Positions 6,103 through 47,089 of a stretch of 49,510 nucleotides of DNA are shown here, piece after piece (the stretch's first letter is position 1; every line of letters begins with the position of its first letter). The translations under genes were made by a program, and so were the position numbers. The notes beneath the pieces are model-generated. The model had not been told where the DNA came from. It saw only the letters and a list, made by a program, of their open reading frames with translations, and searched no databases. The stretch is taken from contig CANPYK010000015.1 in assembly GCA_947588605.1 (NCBI GenBank), positions 1-49,510 on the forward strand. The letters run 5' to 3'. Source of the stretch: an uncultured Oscillospiraceae bacterium. GTDB taxonomy: Bacteria > Bacillota > Clostridia > Oscillospirales > Oscillospiraceae.

Positions 6103-6309
6103 ATGGCCGATGAAATTTTCACCGTTGCTCAAACAGCGCAGTATCTGCAAGTTTGCGAAAAAACAGTGCGCAGACTTATTAGCTCGAATAAACTGATTGC
6201 TTCCCGTGTAGGAGAGGGTAACCGCTCCCTTAGAATTAAGAAATCTGATATAGATGTTTATTTAGCGGAACATATCAATAAAGTGGAAGGAGTTACTATC
6301 AATGAGTGA
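6103..6309 (+). CDS. Excisionase-family helix-turn-helix protein
   Basis: This 68-residue protein consists of a single MerR/excisionase-type helix-turn-helix (HTH_17). It starts FTVAQTAQYLQVCEKTVRRLI and ends with the usual wing (SLRIKKSDIDVYL). AGGAGG lies 8 nt upstream of the ATG and a good promoter precedes it. Its last 8 nt overlap the restriction-modification gene, so the two are co-transcribed and probably coupled. A role as regulator of restriction gene expression, analogous to controller proteins of type II systems, is inferred from the overlap. An ancestral excisionase captured with the element is the alternative. Confidence 0.8.
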   Translation: MADEIFTVAQTAQYLQVCEKTVRRLISSNKLIASRVGEGNRSLRIKKSDIDVYLAEHINKVEGVTINE

Positions 6310-9300
6310 AGAATTGATACAGAAAAATTTGGTAGAAGCTCCTGAAAAAATGGGCGATTGGAATTTTTACAACATCGGAGCTACATCACTCAAGGCTTTG
6401 AAAGGAGCAAAGATTATCCCTGACAGAGACTACGATGAGTATGAAACAAAAAAGCCTGACGCGCTCATTATCAAAAAACCGTTAGTTATTGCTGCTATCG
6501 AGTATAAGGTACCAGCGCAGTTGCGTACAGACAAGCAAATAGAAAGAGCTATTGCACAGGAACTTGGAACGGCTCAGATTTTGCAGGCAAAGGTATACAT
6601 TATTACTGACGGCAAAAAGAGCATCTGGGTCAATCCTGCAAATGGTCATGAAATTTTGCAGGAAGACGGTAGCAAAATCACTCTTAATTTTGATAAGAAC
6701 AGCGCAGAATGTATTGTCCTTATCAACAAAATTAGAGCTTCAATCAATGCAACAAACGATACCATAAAAGCAGCGGCATCAGTTGACCCACTTCCCCTGG
6801 CTGAGAAAGTATGGCAGGATTTATGGGCAGTATCCGGTGCTACGCCGGAAAATTGCCTTTATACTTTCGTTGAAATCTTTATCTTCAAATATCTCAGCGA
6901 CCTCGGGGTGCTCAAAGGTATGTACTCGTTTTATGACCTTTTGAGCAAGTATTCGGGAAATAATGAAAATGAAGTTCTTGAATTCTATGCCTCAACAATT
7001 CGTGTGAAGATAAAAGAGCTCTTTCCCGGCAATCCCAAAGATAAAACCACCATTATCAATGGCACTATCTTTGTGTCCAAAGATGATAAGGCTGTGTCCG
7101 GATATGCAACTGTATTCCACAAGATTCTGAAACGTTTCAATGATTTTGGTACGCTTGAAAATATCGACTATGATTTCAAGAGCAAACTATTTGAAACATT
7201 CCTGAAAGAATCTATCAGCAAGAAAAACTGGGGGCAGTATTTTACTCCTCTAAAGGTCGTTCGTGCCATTGTCAATATGGCAGACATTGAGCCTGGCATG
7301 AGTATCTGTGACCCTGCGTGTGGTGTTGGCAAATTCCTGCTCGAACCCATTTTGCATAGTCTGGATCGGCTGTATGCTGTAAGTGCAGACGAGGCAGGGA
7401 ATGAAAAGTTGCTGCCTCAAATCACCCTTTCGGGATTCGACAAAGGCTTTGACAAGGATGAGCAGAAGACAATTATTCTTGCCAAGGCAAATATGCTGAT
7501 TTATATGTCCGGCATGATTAAAGAACATCCCGGTTTGACGAAGCAATTTGCAGAACTGTTCAACAAGACCTTTACATTGCAGACGAACTCCATTCTCGGC
7601 ACTTTAGCGAAACCAATTACTGAGGAATATGACTTGATTCTCACGAATCCTCCGTATGTCATGAGTGGTAGCAGCAATTTGAAGGAAGAAATTGCCAAGG
7701 ACGATGCTCTGAAAAAGTATTTCTCCATAAGTGCCATGGGTATTGAAGGCTTGTTTATGGAGTGGATTATCCGCGCTTTGAAACCCGGGAAAAAGGCGTT
7801 CATCGTCGTTCCGGACGGTATTATGAATCGCAACAACGATAAAAAACTGCGTGACTTCATTCTTGAGCAATGCAATATTGACGCAGTAATTTCCTTGCCA
7901 CTGAATACATTCTTTACCACCAATAAGAAAACTTATATCCTTGCGTTGACAAAGAAAGTTGCTGTGAATGTTGGTGGAATTGCTACGTTGCCGAAACAAA
8001 CAACGTCTGTTTTCACTTATCTGTGCTCTGAAATCGGTGAAACCCGCGATGTGTACCGCTTTGACATTGAACAGAATGATTTGGAAATTGCTTCTGATCT
8101 GTTCAATATGTTTAAAGGAGCAAAGGCTAAATTCAAAACGGATGATAAGCGTTGTAAGATCGTTGATATTGATGACTTTTATAATGGAACTCATTGGTGC
8201 GTTGATCGCTGGTGGAGTAAGACTGACAAGATTGAGCTTGGAATTAAAGATGAAGTAAAATCAATAAACCTGAGCGATTTTAGAGGACTACTGGGCGACG
8301 CTGTTTTAACGCTGTCAGAATTAGACGAGCCCTTGAGTGAGTTAGAAAAAAAAAAGAATAGCAGTAATGGAAGAATAGCAAATGTTCCGTTGACAGAAGC
8401 GTTTGATATCTTTCGGGGCAGTGGTCAATACACTAAAAGTTACGTCCAAAACCACAGCGGAATATATCCACTTTATTCTGGAAATACAGTCGGTGAATTT
8501 GCATACATTGATGCCTTTGACTATAATACCCCTTGCTTATCATGGGCAATTGACGGATTAGCTGGATATATCATGATACACGAGGGCCCGTTTTCTGCAA
8601 CAAATCATCGTGGTGTATTAGTGAGGAAAAACGATAAAATTGATTTACATTACGCCAAATATGTTTTGGAGCCCATTTTTCGTGAGATGAAAAAGGGACG
8701 CGAAGGAAATAATGGTGAAAACGAATATACGTCGTTGCCTCCATTCATGATTAAAGATCTCTCTTTTCCACTTCCTCTTGATGAAAACGGCGAACCGGAT
8801 TTAGCGATGCAACGTGAAATTGCCTCAAAGCATGTATCTATCGAACAAACAAAAGAGAGTATTAATGAAATTAAGGAAAAAATTGTAGAAGCAAATATAT
8901 CATTAGATAATGAAGAGTATGCAATGCGGTTCTATCCGTTACCCTCTTTATTTGATACTATCAAAGGCCTTTCAAAATACACGAAAAAGTATGGCAATGC
9001 TCATAATGGTGCATTTCCTGTCTATTCAGCATCCAGCAAAGGCCCATTAACCAGTATAGATACTTATGACTATGATGGCAAATACATGACATGGTCAACA
9101 AACGGTTTTGCCGGAACAATTCTGGTTTTGGACGGGAAGTTTTCTATCAACGGAGACCGTGGCGTTTTGATTCCCAAGGATGGTCGAACGGATATTGACT
9201 TTGATTACATGAAGTTTACGTTAGAGCCTCTTTTCCGTGATTTGGCAAAAGGAAGGAAAGGTGATAACGGTGAAGATGAGTTTACAAAACTCTATCCATC

Positions 9301-9463
9301 TATGCTTGATGATATCATGGTTCCGATTCCAGTTGATGATCAAGGAAGCATCAGCCTCGATGCGCAGAAAGAAATCGCCGCCAAGTATTTGGCTATCGAA
9401 CAGTGCAAGAATGAAGTCATTTCAAAACTTGATACTTTAATCCAGCAGAAGATTGAATTATAA
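6302..9463 (+). CDS. Single-chain restriction-modification-specificity enzyme (type IIB/IIG-like)
   Basis: This 1053-residue protein holds every activity of a restriction system in one chain. Residues about 20-120 form a type I HsdR_N-like nuclease domain with PD at 52-53 and EYK at 67-69, a PD-(D/E)XK site. Residues about 165-650 are an HsdM-type adenine methyltransferase with motif I DPACGVGKF (337-345) and motif IV NPPY (449-452). Two HsdS-like target recognition domains follow at about 690-860 and 875-1045; they resemble each other closely. This order matches AloI-like type IIB enzymes, which read a bipartite site, methylate adenines and cut on both sides of it. There is no separate hsdR, hsdM or hsdS nearby, so it should be self-sufficient. 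AAGGAG lies 9 nt before the ATG. A type IIG enzyme cutting one side only is the main alternative. Confidence 0.88.
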   Translation: MSEELIQKNLVEAPEKMGDWNFYNIGATSLKALKGAKIIPDRDYDEYETKKPDALIIKKPLVIAAIEYKVPAQLRTDKQIERAIAQELGTAQILQAKVYIITDGKKSIWVNPANGHEILQEDGSKITLNFDKNSAECIVLINKIRASINATNDTIKAAASVDPLPLAEKVWQDLWAVSGATPENCLYTFVEIFIFKYLSDLGVLKGMYSFYDLLSKYSGNNENEVLEFYASTIRVKIKELFPGNPKDKTTIINGTIFVSKDDKAVSGYATVFHKILKRFNDFGTLENIDYDFKSKLFETFLKESISKKNWGQYFTPLKVVRAIVNMADIEPGMSICDPACGVGKFLLEPILHSLDRLYAVSADEAGNEKLLPQITLSGFDKGFDKDEQKTIILAKANMLIYMSGMIKEHPGLTKQFAELFNKTFTLQTNSILGTLAKPITEEYDLILTNPPYVMSGSSNLKEEIAKDDALKKYFSISAMGIEGLFMEWIIRALKPGKKAFIVVPDGIMNRNNDKKLRDFILEQCNIDAVISLPLNTFFTTNKKTYILALTKKVAVNVGGIATLPKQTTSVFTYLCSEIGETRDVYRFDIEQNDLEIASDLFNMFKGAKAKFKTDDKRCKIVDIDDFYNGTHWCVDRWWSKTDKIELGIKDEVKSINLSDFRGLLGDAVLTLSELDEPLSELEKKKNSSNGRIANVPLTEAFDIFRGSGQYTKSYVQNHSGIYPLYSGNTVGEFAYIDAFDYNTPCLSWAIDGLAGYIMIHEGPFSATNHRGVLVRKNDKIDLHYAKYVLEPIFREMKKGREGNNGENEYTSLPPFMIKDLSFPLPLDENGEPDLAMQREIASKHVSIEQTKESINEIKEKIVEANISLDNEEYAMRFYPLPSLFDTIKGLSKYTKKYGNAHNGAFPVYSASSKGPLTSIDTYDYDGKYMTWSTNGFAGTILVLDGKFSINGDRGVLIPKDGRTDIDFDYMKFTLEPLFRDLAKGRKGDNGEDEFTKLYPSMLDDIMVPIPVDDQGSISLDAQKEIAAKYLAIEQCKNEVISKLDTLIQQKIEL

Positions 9464-15341: not shown

Positions 15342-15375
15342 TTGACAATATACTACAAATACCACTATAAGTCAA
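15342..15375. promoter_or_regulatory. Fully overlapping bidirectional promoter
   Basis: Plus strand: TTGACA (15342-15347), 18 bp, TATAAG (15366-15371), reading toward the XRE gene. Minus strand: TTGACT (15375-15370), 17 bp, TATATT (15352-15347), reading toward the zinc-ribbon operon. Each -35 overlaps the other strand's -10, so polymerase can occupy only one direction at a time. Confidence 0.7.
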
Positions 15376-15442
15376 TATCAATACCCCCATCAGATATTTC
15401 TTGCTCCCGCTCCCATTGGCTACAATAAGTATGGGTGATACT

Positions 15443-15787
15443 ATGGACAACGTGGATTACAAGCGCCTTGGGGAACGGATACGGGAGGAGCGGCTGCACC
15501 TTCGGCTTACGCAGGCACAGCTTGCCGAGGCTATCGACATTTCGGACACCTACATGGGAGCCATCGAACGGGGCGAGAGGGGGCTGTCGTTGGACACGCT
15601 TGTTATGCTGGCCTCCCGGCTCGGCGTGACGGTGGACTACCTGCTGTCCGACACCGTCTCCGGAACGGACGACAACGTCATGGACCAGTTCCGCCAGCTC
15701 ATGGACGGGCAGCCCCTGGAGCGCAAGCAGATGGCTGTCAACGTGCTCCGGTCAATTTTCGCGTATTTTGACAGGAATGGGGGCTGA
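15443..15787 (+). CDS. XRE-family transcriptional regulator
   Basis: This 114-residue protein has an N-terminal Cro/C1-type helix-turn-helix: IREERLHLRLTQAQLAEAI, then the SDTYMGAIERGERGLSLDTL recognition region. A short helical C-terminal part, probably for dimerisation, follows. The chosen start at 15443 has a weak GGGTGA site; an ATG at 15431 is also possible. It is transcribed divergently from the zinc-ribbon operon across a shared promoter, so it is well placed to repress both itself and that operon. Its stop codon lies 3 nt from the convergent 73-residue gene, leaving no room for a terminator between them. Confidence 0.85.
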   Translation: MDNVDYKRLGERIREERLHLRLTQAQLAEAIDISDTYMGAIERGERGLSLDTLVMLASRLGVTVDYLLSDTVSGTDDNVMDQFRQLMDGQPLERKQMAVNVLRSIFAYFDRNGG

Positions 15788-15790
15788 GCC

Positions 15791-16012
15791 TCAGCCCCCA
15801 CCGATCCTGCCCTTTCTGAGAGCTCTGAACAGCTCCACATCATCAACGAGCCTCTTTACCGCAAGCTCAGTCAATACCTCCACAGGCATGGAATACTCTG
15901 CGGCAAGGCGGTTCAGCCTGTCGTAGAGCATCCCGTTTGTGATGTAAACTGCGAAAACCTCCTTTTGCGGGCGGTTTTCCACGCCGTTTTGCGCATATGT
16001 TCCTGCGCTCAT
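15791..16012 (-). CDS. Small helical protein, possible DNA-binding partner
   Basis: This 73-residue protein has a beta-like stretch (EVFAVYITNGMLYDRLNRLA) followed by two helices (VEVLTELAVKRLVDDVELFRAL), suggestive of a ribbon-helix-helix or antitoxin-type fold; this is only an impression. GGAAGGAG lies about 9 nt before the ATG at 16012. The frame stays open upstream and fuses in frame to a phosphatase fragment, but the ribosome binding site and the natural end of the phosphatase domain argue for a separate start here. Confidence 0.5.
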   Translation of the reverse strand: MSAGTYAQNGVENRPQKEVFAVYITNGMLYDRLNRLAAEYSMPVEVLTELAVKRLVDDVELFRALRKGRIGGG

Positions 16013-16408
16013 TTTTATCAACTCCTTCCACCGCCGTCCGAAAGGGCGGCTTTTTCGTACATAGATTTCTTCAAGTGTGTCCAAGCGCAGACAGCCTGGC
16101 TTCCCACCCCTGAACACATAGCCGCAGTAGATGTCGACGAAGCTGTCGGTCCGGTAGAATTCCACCTTCGCTGTCAGGTGCCTGGCCTTATCATACATCA
16201 TCTGCGTGGGCGTGTGACCGACAGCGAACGGTCTGTTCGGGAAGTACACCTCGTCCAGCTCCGGGCGACTCCAGACAAGCTCGTCCCGCCTGTAGTTGCG
16301 TAGCTCCTTGTCCGGCGAGAAGTTCCCCAGTTCCCCGTGGACCAGGACGAACTTTCTCCCGTCCGCCTCCGTCTCCCGGTAGAACGGGAGGGAGTTCATG
16401 TAGTCTCA
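16013..16408 (-). pseudogene. C-terminal fragment of a Ser/Thr-type metallophosphatase
   Basis: The encoded segment reads YMNSLPFYRE, FVLVHGELGNFSPDKEL, YFPNRPFAVGHTPTQ and GGKPGCLRLDTLEEIYV. These are the C-terminal metal-binding His motifs (VHGEL, GHTPT) and closing strands of a PP1/PPP-like calcineurin phosphoesterase. The N-terminal half with the GD-x-H and GDYVDRG motifs is absent, and an in-frame stop lies three codons upstream of the first Met. It is a broken gene. It runs in frame into the 73-residue gene. Confidence 0.65.
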
Positions 16409-16493
16409 GACCAATTTGCGCCGGTCCTCGCTTAAGTCCAGAAAACCGGCAAGGGATATCTCGCCACTGTTGTGGAACCACAATCCTCAGGAA

Positions 16494-16590
16494 GGACATC
16501 TGGGAGACGGGCAGGGCGCTTTACGAGAGTAGGATTCCTGCGATTTTGCCGAAATAACATGAACCTCCCCATGCCACCGGCACAGGGAGG
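16494..16590 (+). repeat. Direct repeat, copy A
   Basis: It begins GGACATCTGGGAGACGG, contains a diverged middle of equal length to copy B, then TGCCGA-ATAAC-TGAA and a CCTCCC...GGGAGG hairpin. Read as protein, the first part is DIWETGRALYESRIPAILPK followed by a stop. It looks like the 3' end of a gene plus its terminator. Copy B is at 21626-21725 in the same orientation. Confidence 0.65.
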
Positions 16591-16775
16591 TCGTTTGTTA
16601 TTTAAGAAGAATATATCTTCGGATAAACACCACATACGCCGAAAAACAAGGTTCCTCTTTTGACGCATACAGTGAAATACCGCACGGGTTGATCCTTCAA
16701 GCAGAACACCGGGTATTCCCATAAGAATACCGGTACTTCATTGAAATTTGCCCGCATTGATAATGCGCTAAACGG

Positions 16776-16814
16776 AAAAACAGGTCGCGCTCATCTTGAG
16801 CAGGACCTGTTTTT
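16776..16814 (-). terminator. Bidirectional terminator after nuclease operon
   Basis: AAAAACAGGTC and GACCTGTTTTT arms surround a GCTCA-TCT-TGAGC stem. It lies 22 nt after the end of the PD-(D/E)XK gene on the minus strand. The 16591-16775 interval in front of it holds only small hairpins and no supported gene. Confidence 0.85.
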
Positions 16815-16835
16815 CTATTATTAGGCTTTCTGCAG

Positions 16836-18776
16836 TCAGGGAGCGCAGTCTTTCAGATCAAAGTTCAGCGCCTTGATGTTTTCCGCAGTGGCGCGGCTGG
16901 ATGCCACATAGTCCCCCAGGTCAAGGGCGGTTTTCAGCTTCTCTATGGTGTCGGCGCCCCAATATCTGGCCACGTAGGCAAAGCCATCCGGCCAGCCGTC
17001 CACCTCAATGGGGCCGAAAGTCTCGTTAATTCCGAAGTTCGGTCTGTTCAGAAAACCCGTCTCCTGTTCGTCAGTGAAGAAATCAGACAGATCGCGGCCG
17101 TTTACTTCTTCCCAGTTTTGCTCTTGCACTTTCTTTTTCATAGCCTCGATGCCCCCGGTAAAGAAGGAGTGGAGCACATCGTAGATGCACAGGCACTTAT
17201 AATAGCGTCCCTTTTTGTCAAATGCCGCGTCCACGAGCCGCTTATTGCCCACGCCGGGGGCCATGGGGCAATCCGCGCGGTCCGTCCTGTCCTTCAGCGC
17301 CAGAGGGCATTTCTCCGAATGCCATTCGCATACAGGCTTTGCGCCGGAGTGCTCCGCGTCAGCCCATCTCGTCAGGAAGTCCCTTAGTTCATCCCCTGTC
17401 ACAAGCATGCTTTTGAGCCAACCGTTTTTGATGTTCAGCTTGTTCCGGATCTCCTCCGTCGTCTCCCCGGGGTGCATCTCTATGTACTGCCGCAGCAACA
17501 CATAGGCCAGCGCCCCCACGGTTTTATTGCCCCGGCTGGCGGAGACGAAAGCCCATGGCTCCCCGTTTTTCTGCTTCACAAAGTATACCGGTTTTTTGTT
17601 GCCGCTTCTGACCCGTTTCAGGGCCTCGACCGCGCTGTTCAGGGCATCGATCTTTTCCCTCTCCACGCCGTCCTGAGCAGCCCCTTCCAGATATTCCAGA
17701 ACGCAGTTGGCGACCGTGTAATAGAACTGCCTGTCAGCGTCAGTGGCGGTAAGGAACAGTTCTCCGCCGTCTGCTCCCGGCGGATCCTCTCCCTGCCCCC
17801 GAGCAGAATCGCTGCCGGAAAGCTCCTTACAAGCCGCCATCAGCACCGCCTCGTGCTTCTCCCAAAGCTCCGCGCTCCACCGCTTTTCGTCAGGGCCGAC
17901 AGCCATCGTGATCTGCTCTGCGCTGGTTTTCTTATCTTCGGTGACCTCAACCTCGATGGACTTGCCAAGGCAGGTGATATAATCCCGCAGTATGTCGGCA
18001 ACAGAGGCGTCGGAGAACCATGTAAGGCAGGGCGAGAGGACCCCGTCCATGAGATATTGGTAGTTTAGAAGCAGGAACAACCGGCTTTTACTCGGGAACT
18101 CTTTACTATTGACCTTCTCTTCGCTTTGGGACATTGCCGTCATGTCGCTGTTGGTGGAGACGTACAGATAGATCGGGATGACATACGCCCCGCTCGGAAC
18201 TTCATTTCCCAGCAGGCAGCGCATATAGTCCTCTGTCTGCATATTGTGCTCCCCGCTGGTTACCTTGTTCTCAATAAGAATAACAAGCGGCTGTTCCGCA
18301 TTGTCCCGGCAGAGCGTCAACGTGATATAGATATCCGCCCGGCGCCCTCCGGGGAAAGGCTTTTCCCGCTGGACGCTGACCTTTTCCATCCGATAGCTTC
18401 CCTGCATCAGCGTTCTGCGCATTTTTTCCTTTTTTCCGTCCGGGTCACGGTCGTAAAACAGCAGTCTTTCCCTGGCGGGTCCCTTCAACTTCTCCTCCCG
18501 GAGGTTTTCCTCCAGAAGATAGGAACGACCGTATTTCACATAGGCAAAGCACGCTGTCTTCAAAAACTGCTTGAGAGGGAAATCCCCCATCTCATGGCTC
18601 TCGTTGGGACCCAGAAGCCAAGCCAAGAAGCTGCTGTGTGGGTTTTCCTGCCTCGCCACCCCCAGAATGTCAAAGATGGTCTTGCGGCTGTAAAACTTGC
18701 GGAGCTTCTGATACTCCGGGCTCTCGCACATATCCAGGTATTGTTTATAGTTGTCAGAATTTTCCCAAAAGTTCAC
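16836..18776 (-). CDS. PD-(D/E)XK nuclease superfamily protein (PF14281-like)
   Basis: This 646-residue protein carries the signature of PF14281-type nucleases. There is an N-terminal KTIFDILGVARQENPHSSFL segment ending in AWLL, then RRADIY with Asp148, ILIENKV with Glu169-x-Lys171, and Gln180 in HNMQTEDYM. The nuclease part covers about the first 300 residues. The remaining 350 have no family I can name but include several cysteines (residues about 480-550; CEWHSEKCPLALKD) and an end region rich in aromatics, perhaps for target sensing. It is the last gene of a four-gene operon and overlaps the PHP gene by 4 nt (ATGA). Members of this nuclease family are frequent in accessory islands; a defence effector role is inferred. 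Confidence 0.8.
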   Translation of the reverse strand: MNFWENSDNYKQYLDMCESPEYQKLRKFYSRKTIFDILGVARQENPHSSFLAWLLGPNESHEMGDFPLKQFLKTACFAYVKYGRSYLLEENLREEKLKGPARERLLFYDRDPDGKKEKMRRTLMQGSYRMEKVSVQREKPFPGGRRADIYITLTLCRDNAEQPLVILIENKVTSGEHNMQTEDYMRCLLGNEVPSGAYVIPIYLYVSTNSDMTAMSQSEEKVNSKEFPSKSRLFLLLNYQYLMDGVLSPCLTWFSDASVADILRDYITCLGKSIEVEVTEDKKTSAEQITMAVGPDEKRWSAELWEKHEAVLMAACKELSGSDSARGQGEDPPGADGGELFLTATDADRQFYYTVANCVLEYLEGAAQDGVEREKIDALNSAVEALKRVRSGNKKPVYFVKQKNGEPWAFVSASRGNKTVGALAYVLLRQYIEMHPGETTEEIRNKLNIKNGWLKSMLVTGDELRDFLTRWADAEHSGAKPVCEWHSEKCPLALKDRTDRADCPMAPGVGNKRLVDAAFDKKGRYYKCLCIYDVLHSFFTGGIEAMKKKVQEQNWEEVNGRDLSDFFTDEQETGFLNRPNFGINETFGPIEVDGWPDGFAYVARYWGADTIEKLKTALDLGDYVASSRATAENIKALNFDLKDCAP

Positions 18777-19624
18777 TGTGTAAACCTCCCTTTCAAATAC
18801 TCCAGCACCGTCAGGGCCTCCGCCGGAACAGGCATATCGGCGGAATTCAAGCGCCCCAGCGGGATGGTCTTGTTACTCCCGTGGTAGTCGCTGCCTCCGG
18901 AAACAAAAAGTCTGTGGATCCGGGCTGTGTCCTCCAGCTTGTGGCACCGCTCCGAAGCGTATTTGGAGTACCAGCACTCCATCCCTCCGATCCCGGCGTC
19001 CAGAAGCTCCCGGAGCTGCGCGTCAAATTCCTCCGGCGTCAGCTCCCGCTTGCCCTCCTCCCCCATGGGGTGCGCCCAGACGGCGACGCCTCCGGCGGCG
19101 CGGACAGCCTCGACGGCCCTGCCCGCCTCCACCCGGTCCGAGGGCGTGGGACAGGGGTCGATGAGCTCTTTGATGGCCCGGTCCCTGTCCGGGGCATATC
19201 CGTACCGGGTGAGCAAGCCCCCCAGATGGGGCTTCCCGGCGCTGGGCATGGCCCGCAGGGCGGCCAGCTCCTCCTCCGGGAGTTCGTACCCGCGTCGGCG
19301 CAGATACGCAAGGCGCGTCTCCAGCTTGGCCCGCCGGAGTCCGGCTGCCTCCTCCAAAAGGGCGTTGAAGGCCGGGTGGCCGATGTCGTACCCAAGGCCA
19401 AGTATGTGGCATTTCCCCGAGGCGGTCCGGGCGCTGATCTCGATACCGGGGATGAGAGCTATTCCTTCGACCGGAGCGGCAATCAGTGCGCGGACGCCCT
19501 CGGCGGTGTCGTGGTCGGTGACGGCAAGGACGCCGATTCCGGCGGCTTTTGCCTTTCGCGCCAGCTCCGGCGGCGTATCCGTCCCGTCGGAGGCGGCGGA
19601 GTGGGTGTGCAGATCGATTTTCAC
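18773..19624 (-). CDS. PHP-domain phosphoesterase (TrpH/YciV-like)
   Basis: This 283-residue protein is a complete PHP domain. It has H6 and H8 in KIDLHTHSAASDGT, DHD at 37-39, E62 in PGIEIS, H73, WAHP, and SGGSDYHG near the C-terminus, giving a full metal-binding set. Relatives remove phosphate from 3',5'-bisphosphonucleosides such as pAp or trim RNA from the 5' end (RNase AM). The GTG at 19624 fits the family start (MKIDLHTHS) and has GAGGTG about 7 nt upstream; a GTG at 19639 overlapping the preceding stop is the alternative. It is translationally coupled to the nuclease gene. In this operon it could make or remove a nucleotide signal. Confidence 0.85.
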   Translation of the reverse strand: MKIDLHTHSAASDGTDTPPELARKAKAAGIGVLAVTDHDTAEGVRALIAAPVEGIALIPGIEISARTASGKCHILGLGYDIGHPAFNALLEEAAGLRRAKLETRLAYLRRRGYELPEEELAALRAMPSAGKPHLGGLLTRYGYAPDRDRAIKELIDPCPTPSDRVEAGRAVEAVRAAGGVAVWAHPMGEEGKRELTPEEFDAQLRELLDAGIGGMECWYSKYASERCHKLEDTARIHRLFVSGGSDYHGSNKTIPLGRLNSADMPVPAEALTVLEYLKGRFTQ

Positions 19625-19635
19625 GACGGGGCACC

Positions 19636-20607
19636 TCACTTCAGCGCGTTGATCAGGTCCCGGAAGGCCCTGGTGAGGATCCTATAGCAGGGCCTGTCTC
19701 CGTCCAGCCACCACCAAAAATGCTTTCCGAAGATAGATGCCTGTTGGACTTCCGAGTCGAGTATGGAGCGCCGGTCCTTGTATTTGTCCTCCGGAAGCTC
19801 CAAAATGGGCTGGACCGTTTGGGCGAACCGGTCCATAGCGGCGGCGGGGATGCGCTTGACCGTCCTGTGGAGAGTGGGCAGCCGCCCGTCCGTATCACAG
19901 CAGAGACAGGTCCGCTTCTCAAAATCGAAATCATAGTGATGCTGATCAAACTGCCGCCAGGTACCGGCGTTCCACGAGTAGGTGCAAGGATTTCCGTCCA
20001 ACAGCGACGCCCGCGCGATCTTGGGGTCTATCTCCACCGAGATATTTTGGCTTCGCAGCCACATCAGGTCGTCCCGTCTGCGGACCATGAAGGGGATCCT
20101 GGTGACACCGTAGTCCGTTACCAGCCAGAAGGTGATGAATATGTTGTACCTGAGGGCGTACCGGAGAAGCGGCAGGTCGTATTTTTTGCGGAATTTGGGG
20201 TCGTGCCACTTGTCCGTCAAAATAGTCACCGTCTTGGGAAGCTCGGTGTCCAATGCCTGGGACATCCTTTCGCACTGCTCCAGGGTCCTGTCCAGCACGT
20301 CCTCCAGCCGCCTTTGACCGGCGCAGACGCCCACGAATTCGGGGAAAACGGTGTCGCATGGGACGCCAAAGGGATAGGTGTTGATGCAAGGCTCTCCGTC
20401 GCCGTCCCCTATCCGCGCCCCGTCCTTGCCCGCCAGGGCGAGGCGTCTGGAGTAGGCGGGCCGGTCCTCTCCACAGCGGAAGATGTCTGCCAGTGTTCCC
20501 ATGGTGGCCTCGGGCAGCATCTGCTCCTCCCGCCGCATGATGGTCAGCATGGAGTCAGGGAGGCTCTCGTCGTGTCGGTAAAGCTCCCTCAAAATGTCCT
20601 CTTTCAC
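19636..20607 (-). CDS. Unknown protein of the XRE-HD/PHP/nuclease operon
   Basis: This 323-residue protein (GTG start, AAGGAG about 8 nt upstream) is not recognised. It has no signal peptide or membrane segment. Notable parts are PKTVTILTDKWHDPKFRKKY, LRYNIFITFWLVTDYGVTRI and a Cys pair (RTCLCC) in the second half. The alternating strand and helix pattern of the centre (about 120-200) could be a Rossmann-like or nuclease-like fold. It sits 58 nt after the XRE-HD gene and its stop touches the PHP gene. It is the most obscure member of the operon and so the best target for structure prediction. Confidence 0.65.
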   Translation of the reverse strand: MKEDILRELYRHDESLPDSMLTIMRREEQMLPEATMGTLADIFRCGEDRPAYSRRLALAGKDGARIGDGDGEPCINTYPFGVPCDTVFPEFVGVCAGQRRLEDVLDRTLEQCERMSQALDTELPKTVTILTDKWHDPKFRKKYDLPLLRYALRYNIFITFWLVTDYGVTRIPFMVRRRDDLMWLRSQNISVEIDPKIARASLLDGNPCTYSWNAGTWRQFDQHHYDFDFEKRTCLCCDTDGRLPTLHRTVKRIPAAAMDRFAQTVQPILELPEDKYKDRRSILDSEVQQASIFGKHFWWWLDGDRPCYRILTRAFRDLINALK

Positions 20608-20665
20608 GAAAAGCGCTCCTTTCTTCGATTTGCCATTGATTTGTCACCCCTCGTTCGTTCCGTAT

Positions 20666-21529
20666 TCACCCCTCGAACCCCGCCAGCAGGGCCTTTTGCG
20701 TCTCCGTAAGACTCAGGATCTGATATTTCAGCAAAAACGCCGCGTCATTCAGCTCCATATAGCGGCGCTTCAGGTCCTCCAGCACGGGCAGGACATACGC
20801 CTCCGTCTCCTCGATGTATTGGACCATTTTCTCCGGGGAGAAGCTGGCCGCCATGGTGGACAGGTTGTTGCACCGGTCCAGGCACTTCACCAGCATGGCC
20901 GTCCGGCTGCTCCGGATCCCGTGGTAATACTCCTCCAGGGCCGCGTTCCTGCCGATCTCCAAAGTCCGTTCCTTCCGGCGGGTCAGCAGCTTCACCGCCG
21001 TCCGCACCGGCTCGGAAAACGGAAGCTCCTCCGGCGCGACGCCGCAGTCCTCGCATACGTCGTGAAGCAGAGCAACAGCCAATACCTCGTCGTCCCGGAC
21101 GCCCAGGGCGTGGGCGTGGCAGGCCACGGTCAGGGGGTGGATGATATAAGGCACCTCCTCCGCCGCCCCTCTGGCTGGCTTGCGGAGCTGTCCGTCGTGG
21201 CACCGGCGCATATACGGAAGGGCGCGATACGTCTCCTCCAGCCCTTCCGCCTGGGCGGTGGATTTCAATCTGGCATACATATGCTCTTCCGAGAACATTT
21301 TATCGGCCAGCTGCCACCGCATGGCTATCCCGGGGTCCCGGCTGAGAAGCGTTTCCGCCGTGATGCCCAGAATATTGGACAGAGACAGGATGCGGTCAGA
21401 ATCCGGCTGGGTCTTCCCGTTCTCCCACTGACTCACCGCCTGAGCCGTCACATAGAGCCTGTCCGCCAGCTCCTGCTGGGACAGCCCCAAGGCCTCCCGA
21501 CGCTTTTTAATTTTGGTCCCGTCAATCAT
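20666..21529 (-). CDS. XRE helix-turn-helix fused to SpoT-like HD hydrolase
   Basis: This 287-residue protein joins two domains. Residues about 5-62 are a Cro/C1 helix-turn-helix (GLSQQELADRLYVTAQAVSQ). Residues about 105-225 are an HD domain of the RelA/SpoT hydrolase type, with YIIHP (H131) and LLHDVCED (H156, D157). The HD arrangement is that of enzymes hydrolysing (p)ppGpp or similar nucleotides; there is no synthetase domain. The ATG at 21529 is preferred over an upstream TTG at 21553. A strong extended -10 promoter lies just upstream. As first gene of the operon it is probably both autoregulator and nucleotide sensor or hydrolase; that dual role is inferred. Confidence 0.8.
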   Translation of the reverse strand: MIDGTKIKKRREALGLSQQELADRLYVTAQAVSQWENGKTQPDSDRILSLSNILGITAETLLSRDPGIAMRWQLADKMFSEEHMYARLKSTAQAEGLEETYRALPYMRRCHDGQLRKPARGAAEEVPYIIHPLTVACHAHALGVRDDEVLAVALLHDVCEDCGVAPEELPFSEPVRTAVKLLTRRKERTLEIGRNAALEEYYHGIRSSRTAMLVKCLDRCNNLSTMAASFSPEKMVQYIEETEAYVLPVLEDLKRRYMELNDAAFLLKYQILSLTETQKALLAGFEG

Positions 21530-21553
21530 GTCTCTTTCCCCCTTGCTCAACAA

Positions 21554-21582
21554 ATTATATCATGGAACGACTGTATTTGCAA
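21554..21582 (-). promoter_or_regulatory. Promoter of the XRE-HD/PHP/nuclease operon
   Basis: On the minus strand TTGCAA (21582-21577), 17 bp and TATAAT (21559-21554), with TGA directly before the -10 (extended -10). The ATG at 21529 gives a leader of under 20 nt. Confidence 0.8.
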
Positions 21583-21625
21583 CAATTGCCGCTTAAGAGC
21601 AGCTAAAGTATCGCTTAAATACGTC

Positions 21626-21725
21626 GGACATCTGGGAGACGGACAGTGAGCTGTATAGAACGTTTTCCCCACGATCCTGCCGAGATAACTGAAAGCCTCC
21701 CTGTGCCGGACGCGGCATGGGGAGG
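21626..21725 (+). repeat. Direct repeat, copy B, with terminator hairpin
   Basis: It shares GGACATCTGGGAGACGG, TGCCGA-ATAAC-TGAA and the CCTCCC/GGGAGG hairpin with 16494-16590, in the same order and orientation. Read as protein it starts DIWETDSELYR and then shifts frame. The hairpin GCCTCCC...GGGAGGC (21695-21726) followed by TTTA can act as a terminator. Confidence 0.65.
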
Positions 21726-21784
21726 CTTTAGGATATCATACATCAATTTTCAAAAGTTATATCTTATAAAACGTCAAAAACCGA

Positions 21785-21814
21785 TTGACTAAAAATTGTA
21801 CTTTGTGATATACT
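21785..21814 (+). promoter_or_regulatory. Promoter of the AAA ATPase gene
   Basis: TTGACT (21785-21790), 18 bp, TATACT (21809-21814), with TGA before the -10. The GTG start is 24 nt downstream. Confidence 0.75.
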
Positions 21815-21837
21815 CTTATTGAGAGGAGCTGAAAGAC

Positions 21838-23010
21838 GTGATCATTCGGGAAAGCTATTTGGAAAAGATCCGTCCCTTTATCGGGAAGGACATCATAAAA
21901 GTGCTGACCGGCATTCGACGTGCCGGGAAAAGTGTATTGCTCGAACAGATACGCGATGAGATCAACAGCCCCAACACGGTCTATCTGAACTTTGAGGATC
22001 TGAGCAATCAGCACCTCTGCGACTATCAGGCCCTGCATGACTATGTTTGTGAGAAAATCGGGGACAGCCGGGAGCAGTTTTACCTGTTCTTTGATGAGAT
22101 CCAGGAGGTGGAGGGCTGGGAGAAGGCCGTCAACTCTCTGCGGGTCAGGTTCCATGCGGACATCTATATCACGGGCTCCAACTCCCGGCTCCTGTCCGGG
22201 GAGCTGGCCACCTATATCGCCGGGCGGTATGTGTCCTTCGTGGTCTATCCCTTCTCTTATGCTGAGTTCAAAACGATAAATTCCGGCTTCACTTTTGAGG
22301 ACTACATCCGATACGGAGGTATGCCCTTCCTGTCCAGCCTCGGCTACGACCCAGACCTTAGCAGGAGCTATCTTCAGGACATCTTCAACTCCGTGGTGTT
22401 GAAGGACGTTGTAAAGCGAAACAACATCCGGGACGTTGACCTTTTGGAGCGCATCATCGCCTACGCCCTTGCCAATGTGGGCCGGAGCTTTTCGGCGACA
22501 AGTATCTCCAAATTCTTCAAGTCCGAGGGCCGTACCGTCGCCCCGGAGACGATTTTGAACTACCTGAAAGCCTGTGAGGACGCATACCTGCTCTACCGCT
22601 TCAGGAGCCAGGATATCAACGGCAAGAAGATCCTGAAGGTCAACGAGAAGTACTACGCGGCAGACCACGGCCTTCGGGAGACGATCATCGGCGCGAATCT
22701 TCAAAATATGGAGATCATCCTCGAGAACATCACCGCCCTTGAGCTGCTTCGCCGGGGCTTCACAGTCAGCGTTGGCCGCGTCGGTGAGAAGGAAATCGAC
22801 TTCGTGGCGGAGAAGCAGGGCGAAAAGCTGTATGTCCAAGTTTGCTATCTGCTGAACGATGAGTCCACCGTACAGCGCGAATTTGGTTCTCTTCTGGATG
22901 TTCGGGACAACTACCCCAAGATCGTTTTATACAAGGAGGGCTCCTTCCGGGGCAGCTTCGAGGGCATCCCGGCCATCAGGTTTGAGGACTGGCTGACGGA
23001 TGTAAAATGA
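21838..23010 (+). CDS. AAA_14/DUF4143 ATPase
   Basis: This 390-residue protein belongs to the widespread AAA_14-DUF4143 ATPase family. The P-loop GIRRAGKS is at 25-32, Walker B FFDEIQ at 84-89, ITGSNS forms sensor 1, and the C-terminal DUF4143 region ends in a PD-(D/E)XK-like part (EKEIDFVAEK, then LYVQVCY). The GTG start has AGGAG 9 nt upstream. The length is normal for the family, which is often present in many copies per genome and lacks an agreed function; a role in nucleic-acid or toxin control has been suggested. It is a single-gene unit between its own promoter and a large terminator hairpin. Confidence 0.85.
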   Translation: MIIRESYLEKIRPFIGKDIIKVLTGIRRAGKSVLLEQIRDEINSPNTVYLNFEDLSNQHLCDYQALHDYVCEKIGDSREQFYLFFDEIQEVEGWEKAVNSLRVRFHADIYITGSNSRLLSGELATYIAGRYVSFVVYPFSYAEFKTINSGFTFEDYIRYGGMPFLSSLGYDPDLSRSYLQDIFNSVVLKDVVKRNNIRDVDLLERIIAYALANVGRSFSATSISKFFKSEGRTVAPETILNYLKACEDAYLLYRFRSQDINGKKILKVNEKYYAADHGLRETIIGANLQNMEIILENITALELLRRGFTVSVGRVGEKEIDFVAEKQGEKLYVQVCYLLNDESTVQREFGSLLDVRDNYPKIVLYKEGSFRGSFEGIPAIRFEDWLTDVK

Positions 23011-23028
23011 GGGCCTCCCCACACAATG

Positions 23029-23095
23029 AAAAAAGCCCCGGGCCTCTTGATGTGATATGCTCCACACATCACGTTGGGATACCCGGTGCTTTTTT
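23029..23095. terminator. Large bidirectional terminator hairpin
   Basis: AAAAAAGCCCCGGG pairs with CCCGGTGCTTTTTT, and a second stem GATGTG/CACATC sits inside. A- and T-tracts on both sides fit use in both directions. The following interval to 23330 holds a CCGCCAC/GTGGCGG hairpin (23139-23160 region) and no supported gene. Confidence 0.7.
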
Positions 23096-23330
23096 CACTT
23101 ATTTTTTGTTGCAGGGTTCCTTCGGCGATAAACCGTCCGCCACATTTTGGCGTGGCGGTATGTGCTGCGACATGAGAGTACATGAAGAGGCCAAATCCGT
23201 TTTTCCATTGGGCCGCAAGGCTTTATGGCACCTCGTTGAGATTTGGCCGCATTCGTAAAAACGCTAAGAGGCTACGATGCCAAGCTTCATGGTGGTTCTC
23301 TCTCCTAGTTATAAAATAGTGGGGACTCGG

Positions 23331-45665: not shown

Positions 45666-45694
45666 TTGACAAACACACTCATTGGGTGTACCAT
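45666..45694 (+). promoter_or_regulatory. Promoter with inverted-repeat operator of the TA pair
   Basis: TTGACA (45666-45671), 17 bp, TACCAT (45689-45694). The spacer contains ACACTC-ATT-GGGTGT (45675-45689), a 6-3-6 inverted repeat with one mismatch, placed to block polymerase. Confidence 0.65.
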
Positions 45695-45712
45695 AGAAGC
45701 GAGGTGAGGCTC

Positions 45713-46363
45713 TTGAACATTCGGGAAATGAGAAGACGCTTAGGCGACACACAAAGCGAATTTGCCGCAAGGTACAATATTCCGTTTCGAACCATTCAAA
45801 ATTGGGAATCGGATATCCGCAAGCCGCCTGAATATCTTGTGGATTTACTGGAATACCGCGTGCAGACGGATCTTATTAACCGAAAGACAGCTTTGCTGCC
45901 AAGGTATGACCCCCAAAAGAGCAATCTTCCCAAGAGACGCGATTTTGTGGGGGCAATCTCTTGGCTTCAGGCGGTTCGGGACTGCATTGGGGAGGATGTC
46001 GTATTCGCGTTGGACGAGGCGCTTATGTGTCAAGGCCAATTTGGGGGGCGAAATGACGAGTTTGTCATATGGGTGTACGGCAGCAACTCTGTTTCCCGTT
46101 TTAATGGAGTGGTCGTCCTCGGCAATCAGGTAAGTTCATTCAATACAAAGGAGAAAAACGGATTAAAGTATACCGACTTCAACAGAACCATTGATGACGC
46201 TCTCGCCAATGAAGCTATCCTCGATATGCAGGGCATTACAGAGGCAATCAGCAAGTATTATTATCGGAACGGAAACAGCTTTGATGGAATCTCCGTGGCT
46301 CCCGAGTATCAGAGCAGATTTGAACGGCTGGCAAGGGAAGCGGTAGAATATTATGAAATGTAA
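45713..46363 (+). CDS. XRE-type antitoxin/regulator
   Basis: This 216-residue protein has an N-terminal helix-turn-helix (MRRRLGDTQSEFAARYNIPF, then RTIQNWESDIRKPPEYLVDL). A C-terminal domain of about 150 residues (KRRDFVGAISWLQAVRDCIG; FVIWVYGSNSVSRFNG) presumably neutralises the partner. The TTG at 45713 is chosen for GAGGTG 6 nt upstream; ATG 45728 has no site. It lies 12 nt ahead of the AbiEii-like toxin gene and behind an operator-bearing promoter, the usual layout of an autoregulated toxin-antitoxin operon. The antitoxin role is inferred. Confidence 0.75.
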   Translation: MNIREMRRRLGDTQSEFAARYNIPFRTIQNWESDIRKPPEYLVDLLEYRVQTDLINRKTALLPRYDPQKSNLPKRRDFVGAISWLQAVRDCIGEDVVFALDEALMCQGQFGGRNDEFVIWVYGSNSVSRFNGVVVLGNQVSSFNTKEKNGLKYTDFNRTIDDALANEAILDMQGITEAISKYYYRNGNSFDGISVAPEYQSRFERLAREAVEYYEM

Positions 46364-46375
46364 GAAGGTACGTCA

Positions 46376-47089
46376 ATGAACATCTCATTGGAAGAAAAGC
46401 TGATGTATAGGGTCATGAAGGCGCTATATGACAGCGGAATCCCCATCAGCTTTAAGGGGTCAATGGTATTGAAAGCCTGTTTGATGGATGCGGGTTTTTT
46501 GGAAGAAACGCGACACACGGTTGATATTGACGCGAACTGGAACTCAGATACACCTCCTTCTGCAGAACAAATGGTTAAATCTTTGCAGGATGCCCTGAAC
46601 GACGGTGGAATAGCCCTGACTGTAAGCCTATACAGGATGTACGGGGAAGGGCGTTCAGCCGGTTTTGAGCTGGCAGATAAGTCTACCGAAGAAATACTTT
46701 TTTCTATGGACATTGATGTTAATCGGCCTGTGCCGCCAACAAAAATCTATGAGGTGGACGGGTTTCGGTTTCGCGGGGTTGTCCCTGATCAAATGATTGC
46801 GGATAAGGTCGCTGTAGTTTCTACCGATAAAGTGTTCCGCAGGATAAAAGATGTCGTAGACTTATATTATATGTCAAAAACCTTCAAATTTGACAAAAAC
46901 AGTATACTGCGGACATTGGCAGGAAACGGAAGGGACTTGGGGGATTTTCACGGCTTTCTCCATAGGATAGACGAGTTGAGACACTCTTATGAAAAATTCC
47001 GCTTCAATGGGGATGTAGAAAAGCCCCCGTTCGAGACAGTTTACTTTGATGTGAAATCATATATCGAAGATGTGCTTCCTGAGAAGTGA
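46376..47089 (+). CDS. AbiEii-like nucleotidyltransferase toxin
   Basis: This 237-residue protein is a nucleotidyltransferase of the AbiEii/AbiGii toxin family (PF08843 type). FKGSMVLKACL at about 26-36 corresponds to the glycine-rich nucleotide-binding part, TVDIDANW (D50, D52) is the catalytic DxD, and PDQMIADKVAVVSTDKVFRR leading to KDVVDLYYM is the conserved C-terminal helix. Relatives inactivate tRNAs or other RNAs by adding nucleotides and cause abortive infection. It follows an XRE gene rather than the more usual AbiEi winged-helix antitoxin. AAGGTACGTCA precedes the ATG. Confidence 0.82.
   Translation: MNISLEEKLMYRVMKALYDSGIPISFKGSMVLKACLMDAGFLEETRHTVDIDANWNSDTPPSAEQMVKSLQDALNDGGIALTVSLYRMYGEGRSAGFELADKSTEEILFSMDIDVNRPVPPTKIYEVDGFRFRGVVPDQMIADKVAVVSTDKVFRRIKDVVDLYYMSKTFKFDKNSILRTLAGNGRDLGDFHGFLHRIDELRHSYEKFRFNGDVEKPPFETVYFDVKSYIEDVLPEK

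Follow-up and report, generated by a model that had tools for sequence, protein, structure and literature searches.

In the main text of PMC3153485, small alarmone hydrolases (SAHs, MESH1-like) are defined as proteins containing an HD domain only, and a word search of that text returned no occurrence of 'helix-turn-helix' or 'HTH'. We describe here a four-gene operon on the minus strand of a 49,510-nucleotide stretch of DNA from an uncultured Oscillospiraceae bacterium (contig CANPYK010000015.1, positions 1 to 49,510), which we call the window. The first gene (20666..21529) encodes XRE-HD, a protein of 287 amino acids (aa) composed of an XRE helix-turn-helix (Pfam HTH_3, E 2e-16) and a RelA/SpoT-type HD domain (Pfam HD, E 4.4e-5). 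It resembles the SAHs in its HD active-site motifs (~190 aa, no synthetase domain found) but differs from them by the N-terminal XRE helix-turn-helix. The second gene (19636..20607) specifies a protein of 323 aa and of no recognised kind, which has the composition of a coding sequence and for which the collections searched gave no credible relative. The third product, a PHP-family phosphoesterase of 288 aa (18773..19639; PF02811, E 7.3e-9; PDB 3e0f, E 3.6e-28), matches the 3′,5′-nucleoside bisphosphate phosphatase and RNase RNM over nearly its whole length and carries the metal-site motifs; yet both NCBIfam models (NF041577, E 3.1e-35; NF047791, E 4.4e-35) match far under their equivalog cut-offs, with 121.7 of 400 and 121.3 of 375 bits. 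The last gene (16836..18776) encodes a PF14281 PD-(D/E)XK nuclease of 646 aa (E 2.4e-21), which has the N-terminal nuclease domain and a complete motif in common with PF14281 nucleases and PDC-S26 but is distinguished from them by an extra C-terminal part of ~330 aa.

As a block, the four genes resemble the cargo operons of variable islands, being present in one genome and not in two relatives, with no shared gene history seen; they differ from such operons in that one gene, that of the 323-aa protein, is without known relatives. We consider the block to be probably a lineage-specific cargo operon in a variable island, assembled from four independent parts, and not a conserved system. It was detected in one genome only. 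Active-site motifs are retained in all three enzymes that can be recognised, and the histories of the parts seem separate. The protein families are known, and the gene set is new as a single instance only. An open-licence library yielded no paper on PF14281 or on PDC-S26, none that joined the PHP domain with anti-phage activity, ppGpp and a nuclease, and none that brought together at least three of PHP domain, HD domain, XRE and defense island.

The four genes occur apart

Co-occurrence was searched by tblastn with the four proteins (E 1e-5), leaving out eight loci of the window itself and discarding HD matches that ended before residue 110 as helix-turn-helix only. Not one of the 68 loci having at least one of the genes had two of them. 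The same was true of the loci collected later at E 0.01, among which L146-L148 entered only as the wider L149-L151. The 68 loci are not all independent; several represent the same place twice, many have flanks of just 1.5 kb, and at 15 of them the open frames are sized like long RSH genes or their pieces. The joint recurrence in unrelated genomes by which a multi-gene defence system would be recognised was not found in these loci, the 323-aa gene offering no relatives to judge by. The first-pass annotation of this DNA had proposed a mobile cassette in which a nucleotide signal controls a nuclease, and had stated that homologs lying mostly apart would refute it; in the loci tested, apart is how they lie. 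The one support for control of the nuclease by a nucleotide signal is the packing of the genes in a single genome.

This distribution bears on the view that the genes form an integrated stress or antiphage system, in which the HD and PHP enzymes would either set the level of a nucleotide signal or mend nucleotide ends, sensing or coupling would fall to the 323-aa protein, and the nuclease would be the effector. Such a system would be in keeping with the tight packing, the promoter-like site and the terminator-like hairpin, with the match of the nuclease to PDC-S26 of a defence candidate library, with a type I methylase-specificity gene and AbiEii on the contig, and with an XRE-HD relative that adjoins ZorA/ZorB-like genes. 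We nevertheless regard it as unlikely: no two of the four genes stood together in the loci tested, PHP relatives are common in the genus and lie in varied places, and Pfam shows neither an alarmone synthetase in the operon nor a further domain in the nuclease.

An operon-free site in related genomes

Comparison by blastn with the corresponding locus of a relative, G016, aligned window positions 15349-16482 with L103 14486-15618 (83%) and positions 21628-23307 with L103 16452-18138 (90%). The segment in between (16483..21627) is not in G016: 5,145 bp holding the operon stand opposite 833 bp there (L103 15619-16451), a stretch with the beginning of a phosphatase gene and the greater part of a small gene. 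The gene order in G016 is a 236-aa phosphatase gene, a 156-aa gene, a hairpin and an AAA_14/DUF4143 gene. G024 provides a second operon-free site, with an intact 156-aa gene and a phosphatase gene that is nearly all lost. In G021 the genes to the right align well and there is no alignment across the insertion site. The insertion itself is seen in this comparison; its mechanism, and entry in a single step, we infer.

On the left of the insert, the window has a broken calcineurin-like phosphatase gene (15791..16482, minus strand; the phosphatase part at ~16055-16482), the counterpart of the intact 236-aa gene of G016. Measured on the latter, the first ~94 of 236 residues are gone, and there is an in-frame stop; an open reading frame (ORF) at 15791-16399 continues from the broken phosphatase into the next small gene. 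To the right lies the AAA_14/DUF4143 ATPase gene (21838..23010, plus strand; AAA_14, E 2.8e-33), a conserved neighbour outside the insert that occupies the same place in G016 and G024 and matches the PADLOC candidate PDC-S01 (E 1.6e-148).

The alternative is an operon ancestral at this locus and lost separately in G016 and G024 by deletion. The content of the surrounding island does differ among the window genome, G016 and G024, and in G024 the phosphatase gene is nearly all lost as well. However, G016 and G024 keep an intact small gene of which the window has a frameshifted 3′ end only, and none of the 59 other genomes holds the 323-aa gene, one having a short nuclease match and nothing more. 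An ancestral operon appears improbable. From these sequences we favour a gain in the lineage of the window over two losses, because both operon-free sites keep the small gene intact. The cassette of the first-pass annotation survives in the weak sense that two relatives lack the operon within a variable island; its mobility and its bracketing by repeats do not, as set out below.

Three other loci of the region and its surroundings may be recorded here. The variable part to the left of the G016 locus contains an IetA-like ATPase gene (L103 12104-13072; E 1.1e-37). In the window, a fused type I methylase-specificity gene of low GC content (0.40) is found at 6302-9463, and an HTH_3 and AbiEii gene pair at 45686-47089.

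The flanking repeats

The operon is surrounded, as had been noticed at first sight, by two similar repeats of ~100 bp in the same orientation, and their similarity is well above chance: the local score is 61, against a best of 26 in 500 block shuffles and 25 elsewhere in the window. A whole-genome search with the repeat gave three matches, all in the two repeat places; a single hairpin arm accounts for the third. Repeat 1 (16490..16592, plus strand) and repeat 2 (21622..21724, plus strand) are 69.7% identical over 99 aligned bases with 8 gap positions. G016 and G024 carry the intact 156-aa gene, and the 3′ end of this gene together with its hairpin corresponds to both repeats. Repeat 1 is 72.8% identical to the G016 copy and 73.8% to that of G024; the values for repeat 2 are 76.7% and 81.6%, and the G016 and G024 copies are 86.0% identical to each other.

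Repeat 1 is a remnant comprising the 3′ terminus and hairpin of a small gene that is weakly XRE-like (75% to L103 16446-16550; taken from 16484, 74% to L121 5837-5947). Repeat 2 is the 3′ terminus of a gene of this kind, again with the hairpin, and lies next to the AAA_14 gene, where such a gene is usually situated; it is without one base found in the other three copies, which results in a frameshift. 'XRE-like' is a weak label for the 156-aa gene, since its sole Pfam matches are helix-turn-helix models that fall below their cut-offs (E 0.07 and 0.27). Judged by this correspondence the repeats are decayed 3′ gene ends and not the ends of an element. One of the two remnants would be resident, and the other probably arrived with the insert or was left by an earlier rearrangement.

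The near-identical end repeats of an integrative element were not found here, at 69.7% identity, and neither Pfam nor NCBIfam gave a recombinase domain in the four operon proteins that the repeats enclose. An integrative mobile element having the direct repeats as its ends is very improbable and largely refuted already, even though the insertion is real and the same-orientation repeats are far beyond chance and confined to just two places in the genome: at ~70% identity they represent gene 3′ ends and hairpins that are present in insert-free relatives, none of the four proteins has an integrase, transposase or recombinase domain in Pfam, and a clean integration would not have removed part of the phosphatase gene and the bulk of the small one.

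Gene order and expression signals

The order of transcription on the minus strand is XRE-HD, the 323-aa ORF, PHP and the PF14281 nuclease. Overlaps of 4 nt (GTGA) are found at both the 323-aa/PHP and the PHP/nuclease junctions, and XRE-HD is separated from the 323-aa gene by a gap of 58 nt with an AGGAG-like site, read by eye. The tight operon described initially is therefore confirmed in its four genes, promoter-like site and terminator hairpin, but its stop-start overlaps are limited to two of the three junctions, the remaining one being the 58-nt gap.

A sigma-70-like promoter match (TTGCAA-17-TATAAT, 10 of 12 positions; 21554..21582, minus strand) precedes XRE-HD. Two promoter-like matches were found in the region, against a mean of 1.9 in shuffles, so that the promoter call rests on its position before XRE-HD and not on rarity. 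Located 3′ of the nuclease gene is a terminator-like hairpin with a T-rich end (16775..16822, minus strand), for which folding gave −24.8 kcal/mol and a z-score of −8.1. A consensus terminator scan did not list this hairpin; it returned 7 terminator-like sites, against 5.8 in shuffles.

The four products and their relatives

Pfam matches and motifs agree with the products initially assigned, that is an HD hydrolase, an unassigned 323-aa protein, a PHP phosphoesterase and a PF14281-like nuclease. The motif residues of the HD, PHP and nuclease families are important for activity. Genome counts given below for all four proteins include the window's own genome, and the three sets (60 relatives, 391 genomes of the class, 394 of the order) overlap.

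XRE-HD passes the gathering score of the PF01966 HD family (24.2 vs 22 bits) and does not reach that of HD_4 (25.3 vs 27.2 bits); a TIGR00691 match (local E 6.9e-14) is under the cut-off of that model. Among solved structures it matches RSH and MESH1 proteins, at best with E 1.3e-12. In an alignment with five relatives the motifs HxGQLRK, PYIIHP, LLHDVCED and DRxNN are intact, and the RSH-type HD pattern (H..GQxRK, YxxHP, HDxxED, DRxxN) is thereby found complete. All 60 relatives contain matches, mostly to other helix-turn-helix proteins or to long RSH proteins. Four places have close matches (44-46% over the HD part), and in G003 and G029 the similarity extends over both domains (36-38%). At E 1e-20 or better, matches were obtained in 4 of the 394 genomes of the order. 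The full two-domain form is present in G161 (45%), without the other three operon genes. The HD part matches 112 phage and 32 plasmid records, including a relative on a Butyrivibrio plasmid (50%) which is likewise without the other three.

The neighbourhoods of several XRE-HD relatives deserve mention for their own sake. On viral contig L133 (2411-5792) a full-length relative (43%) is divergent from and adjoins ZorA-like (E 1.8e-19) and ZorB-like (E 6.4e-66) genes, with a recombinase-like gene nearby that was recognised by eye; the other three operon genes are not there. At L151 (6467-9236) an RNA ligase gene (PF09414, E 3.7e-31) and a gene with HD and AAA_33 domains (AAA_33, E 4.7e-22) precede an HD_4 relative, an arrangement resembling an RNA-repair set and a hint that this HD family could serve RNA repair. 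At L078 (5183-6593) the gene of an HD-only relative shares 8 nt with the end of one for a calcineurin-like phosphoesterase, and the same pair with the same overlap recurs at L079. Finally, at L130 (7108-8739) an XRE-HD relative without the HDxxED motif is divergent from an adjoining intact HD gene. With further instances in G161, L133 and this motif-less relative, the XRE-HD architecture is, of the recurring parts of the operon, the most interesting.

The GC content of the 323-aa ORF by codon position is 0.568/0.426/0.787, against 0.760/0.470/0.556 for the antisense ORF; because the pattern is gene-like on the first strand and not on the antisense, we take the ORF to be coding on its own strand. 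The protein was found in one of the 60 relatives and in one of the 391 genomes of the class, in both cases the window's own genome only. A short-peptide scan of viral contigs and genome contigs, which finds close relatives only, detected none, there was no plasmid or phage match, and Pfam, PADLOC, NCBIfam and PHROGs gave nothing at E 0.1. A PDB match to mL38 (E 0.79) and a Pfam match (E 0.24) were disregarded, and the AlphaFold (AF2) model, with a pLDDT of 36.6, is not usable. Matches in three of the 394 genomes of the order comprised the protein itself and two weak candidates, both rejected. The first, L005, has internal stops and partly overlaps another ORF. The second, L006, is a match in frame within a putative TruA gene (36% over 74 residues, E 6e-7 as a single pair). 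TruA, which we take the enclosing gene to encode, is universal, yet such a match occurred in just one of the 394 genomes; with E 0.005 per genome and 394 genomes searched it is at chance level and was rejected.

The PHP protein exceeds the PF02811 gathering score (36.6 vs 26.4 bits), and its alignment contains the metal-site motifs, with the residues HTH, DHD, GIE, H, AHP and GGSDYHG. Since similarity begins at about residue 6-7, a GTG at 19624 is an alternative start. Matches occur in 48 of the 60 genomes, many through a short PHP-domain stretch alone. A second copy (52%) lies on a different contig of the window genome. The closest other PHP (80%) is that of G022, where it is flanked by NIF3-like and TrmK-like genes, presumably nif3 and trmK; DNA similarity between G022 and the operon is limited to the PHP gene, and the nif3 stretch of the window's own genome gave no PHP match. 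The remaining copies in the genus have varied neighbours, which are approximate as they come from simple longest-ORF-first gene calling.

The nuclease scores well above the PF14281 gathering threshold (76.9 vs 22.3 bits). The motif RAD...IENK...Q is present, and D148, E169 and K171 are invariant in all three sequences when the protein is aligned with two relatives, one from a phage and one bacterial. The PADLOC match to PDC-S26 has E 6.4e-22, its best stretch covering residues 8-78 only, and Pfam shows no further domain beyond PF14281. The 60 relatives yielded the protein itself and one short match, and the 394 genomes of the order yielded the protein itself and two other matches. There are two phage records, the best relative covering 47% of the query, and six plasmid records covering 9-11%. 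Short-peptide scans of genome contigs and viral contigs gave no match for the nuclease; a pattern taken from the three-sequence alignment gave 98 matches, from which five viral contigs with a relative were obtained. In these five contigs, in Dulem virus 37 and in G424 the nuclease relatives are without the other three operon genes. The PF14281 nuclease gene of Dulem virus 37 (L102 5974-6963) is followed by one small hypothetical gene and lies on the strand opposite to the flanking terminase and portal genes.

Discussion

A scheme for the operon can be drawn from what is characteristic of the protein families. The XRE domain of XRE-HD would bind its own promoter and set the expression of the whole unit, while the HD domain might strip the 3′-pyrophosphate from (p)ppGpp-type alarmones or similar ends. 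The PHP enzyme may dephosphorylate small nucleotides or trim RNA or DNA ends, and the PD-(D/E)XK protein would be a DNA-cutting nuclease of the restriction-like or mobile-element type. The overlap of the 323-aa and PHP genes suggests translational coupling and hence a joint dosage. One could go further and imagine a module of a new kind: a hydrolase of alarmones or RNA ends, under XRE control, would join with PHP in restraining a nucleotide signal or RNA ends that carry pyrophosphate, the nuclease would attack DNA that enters the cell, and the 323-aa protein would represent a new coupling family. We find this highly doubtful.

Several observations weigh against the reading of the block as a cargo operon of independent parts. 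All four frames are open, and the two 4-nt overlaps, the promoter-like site and the hairpin suggest selection for co-expression. The 323-aa protein is without relatives, so a system that includes it could exist in unsampled genomes, and an operon known from a single genome may still be functional. Among the 112 phage and 32 plasmid records with an HD match the neighbourhood was viewed for one, the Butyrivibrio plasmid, and the operon-free site is seen in two relatives only.

If the four genes are, as we think probable, a lineage-specific cargo operon, the locus illustrates that a tidy operon with attractive enzyme names need not be a system. The operon-free site in relatives accounts for both the repeats and the insertion. 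What recurs is XRE-HD, in which a helix-turn-helix is joined to a domain resembling that of alarmone hydrolases; it is found in varied places including beside Zorya-like genes.

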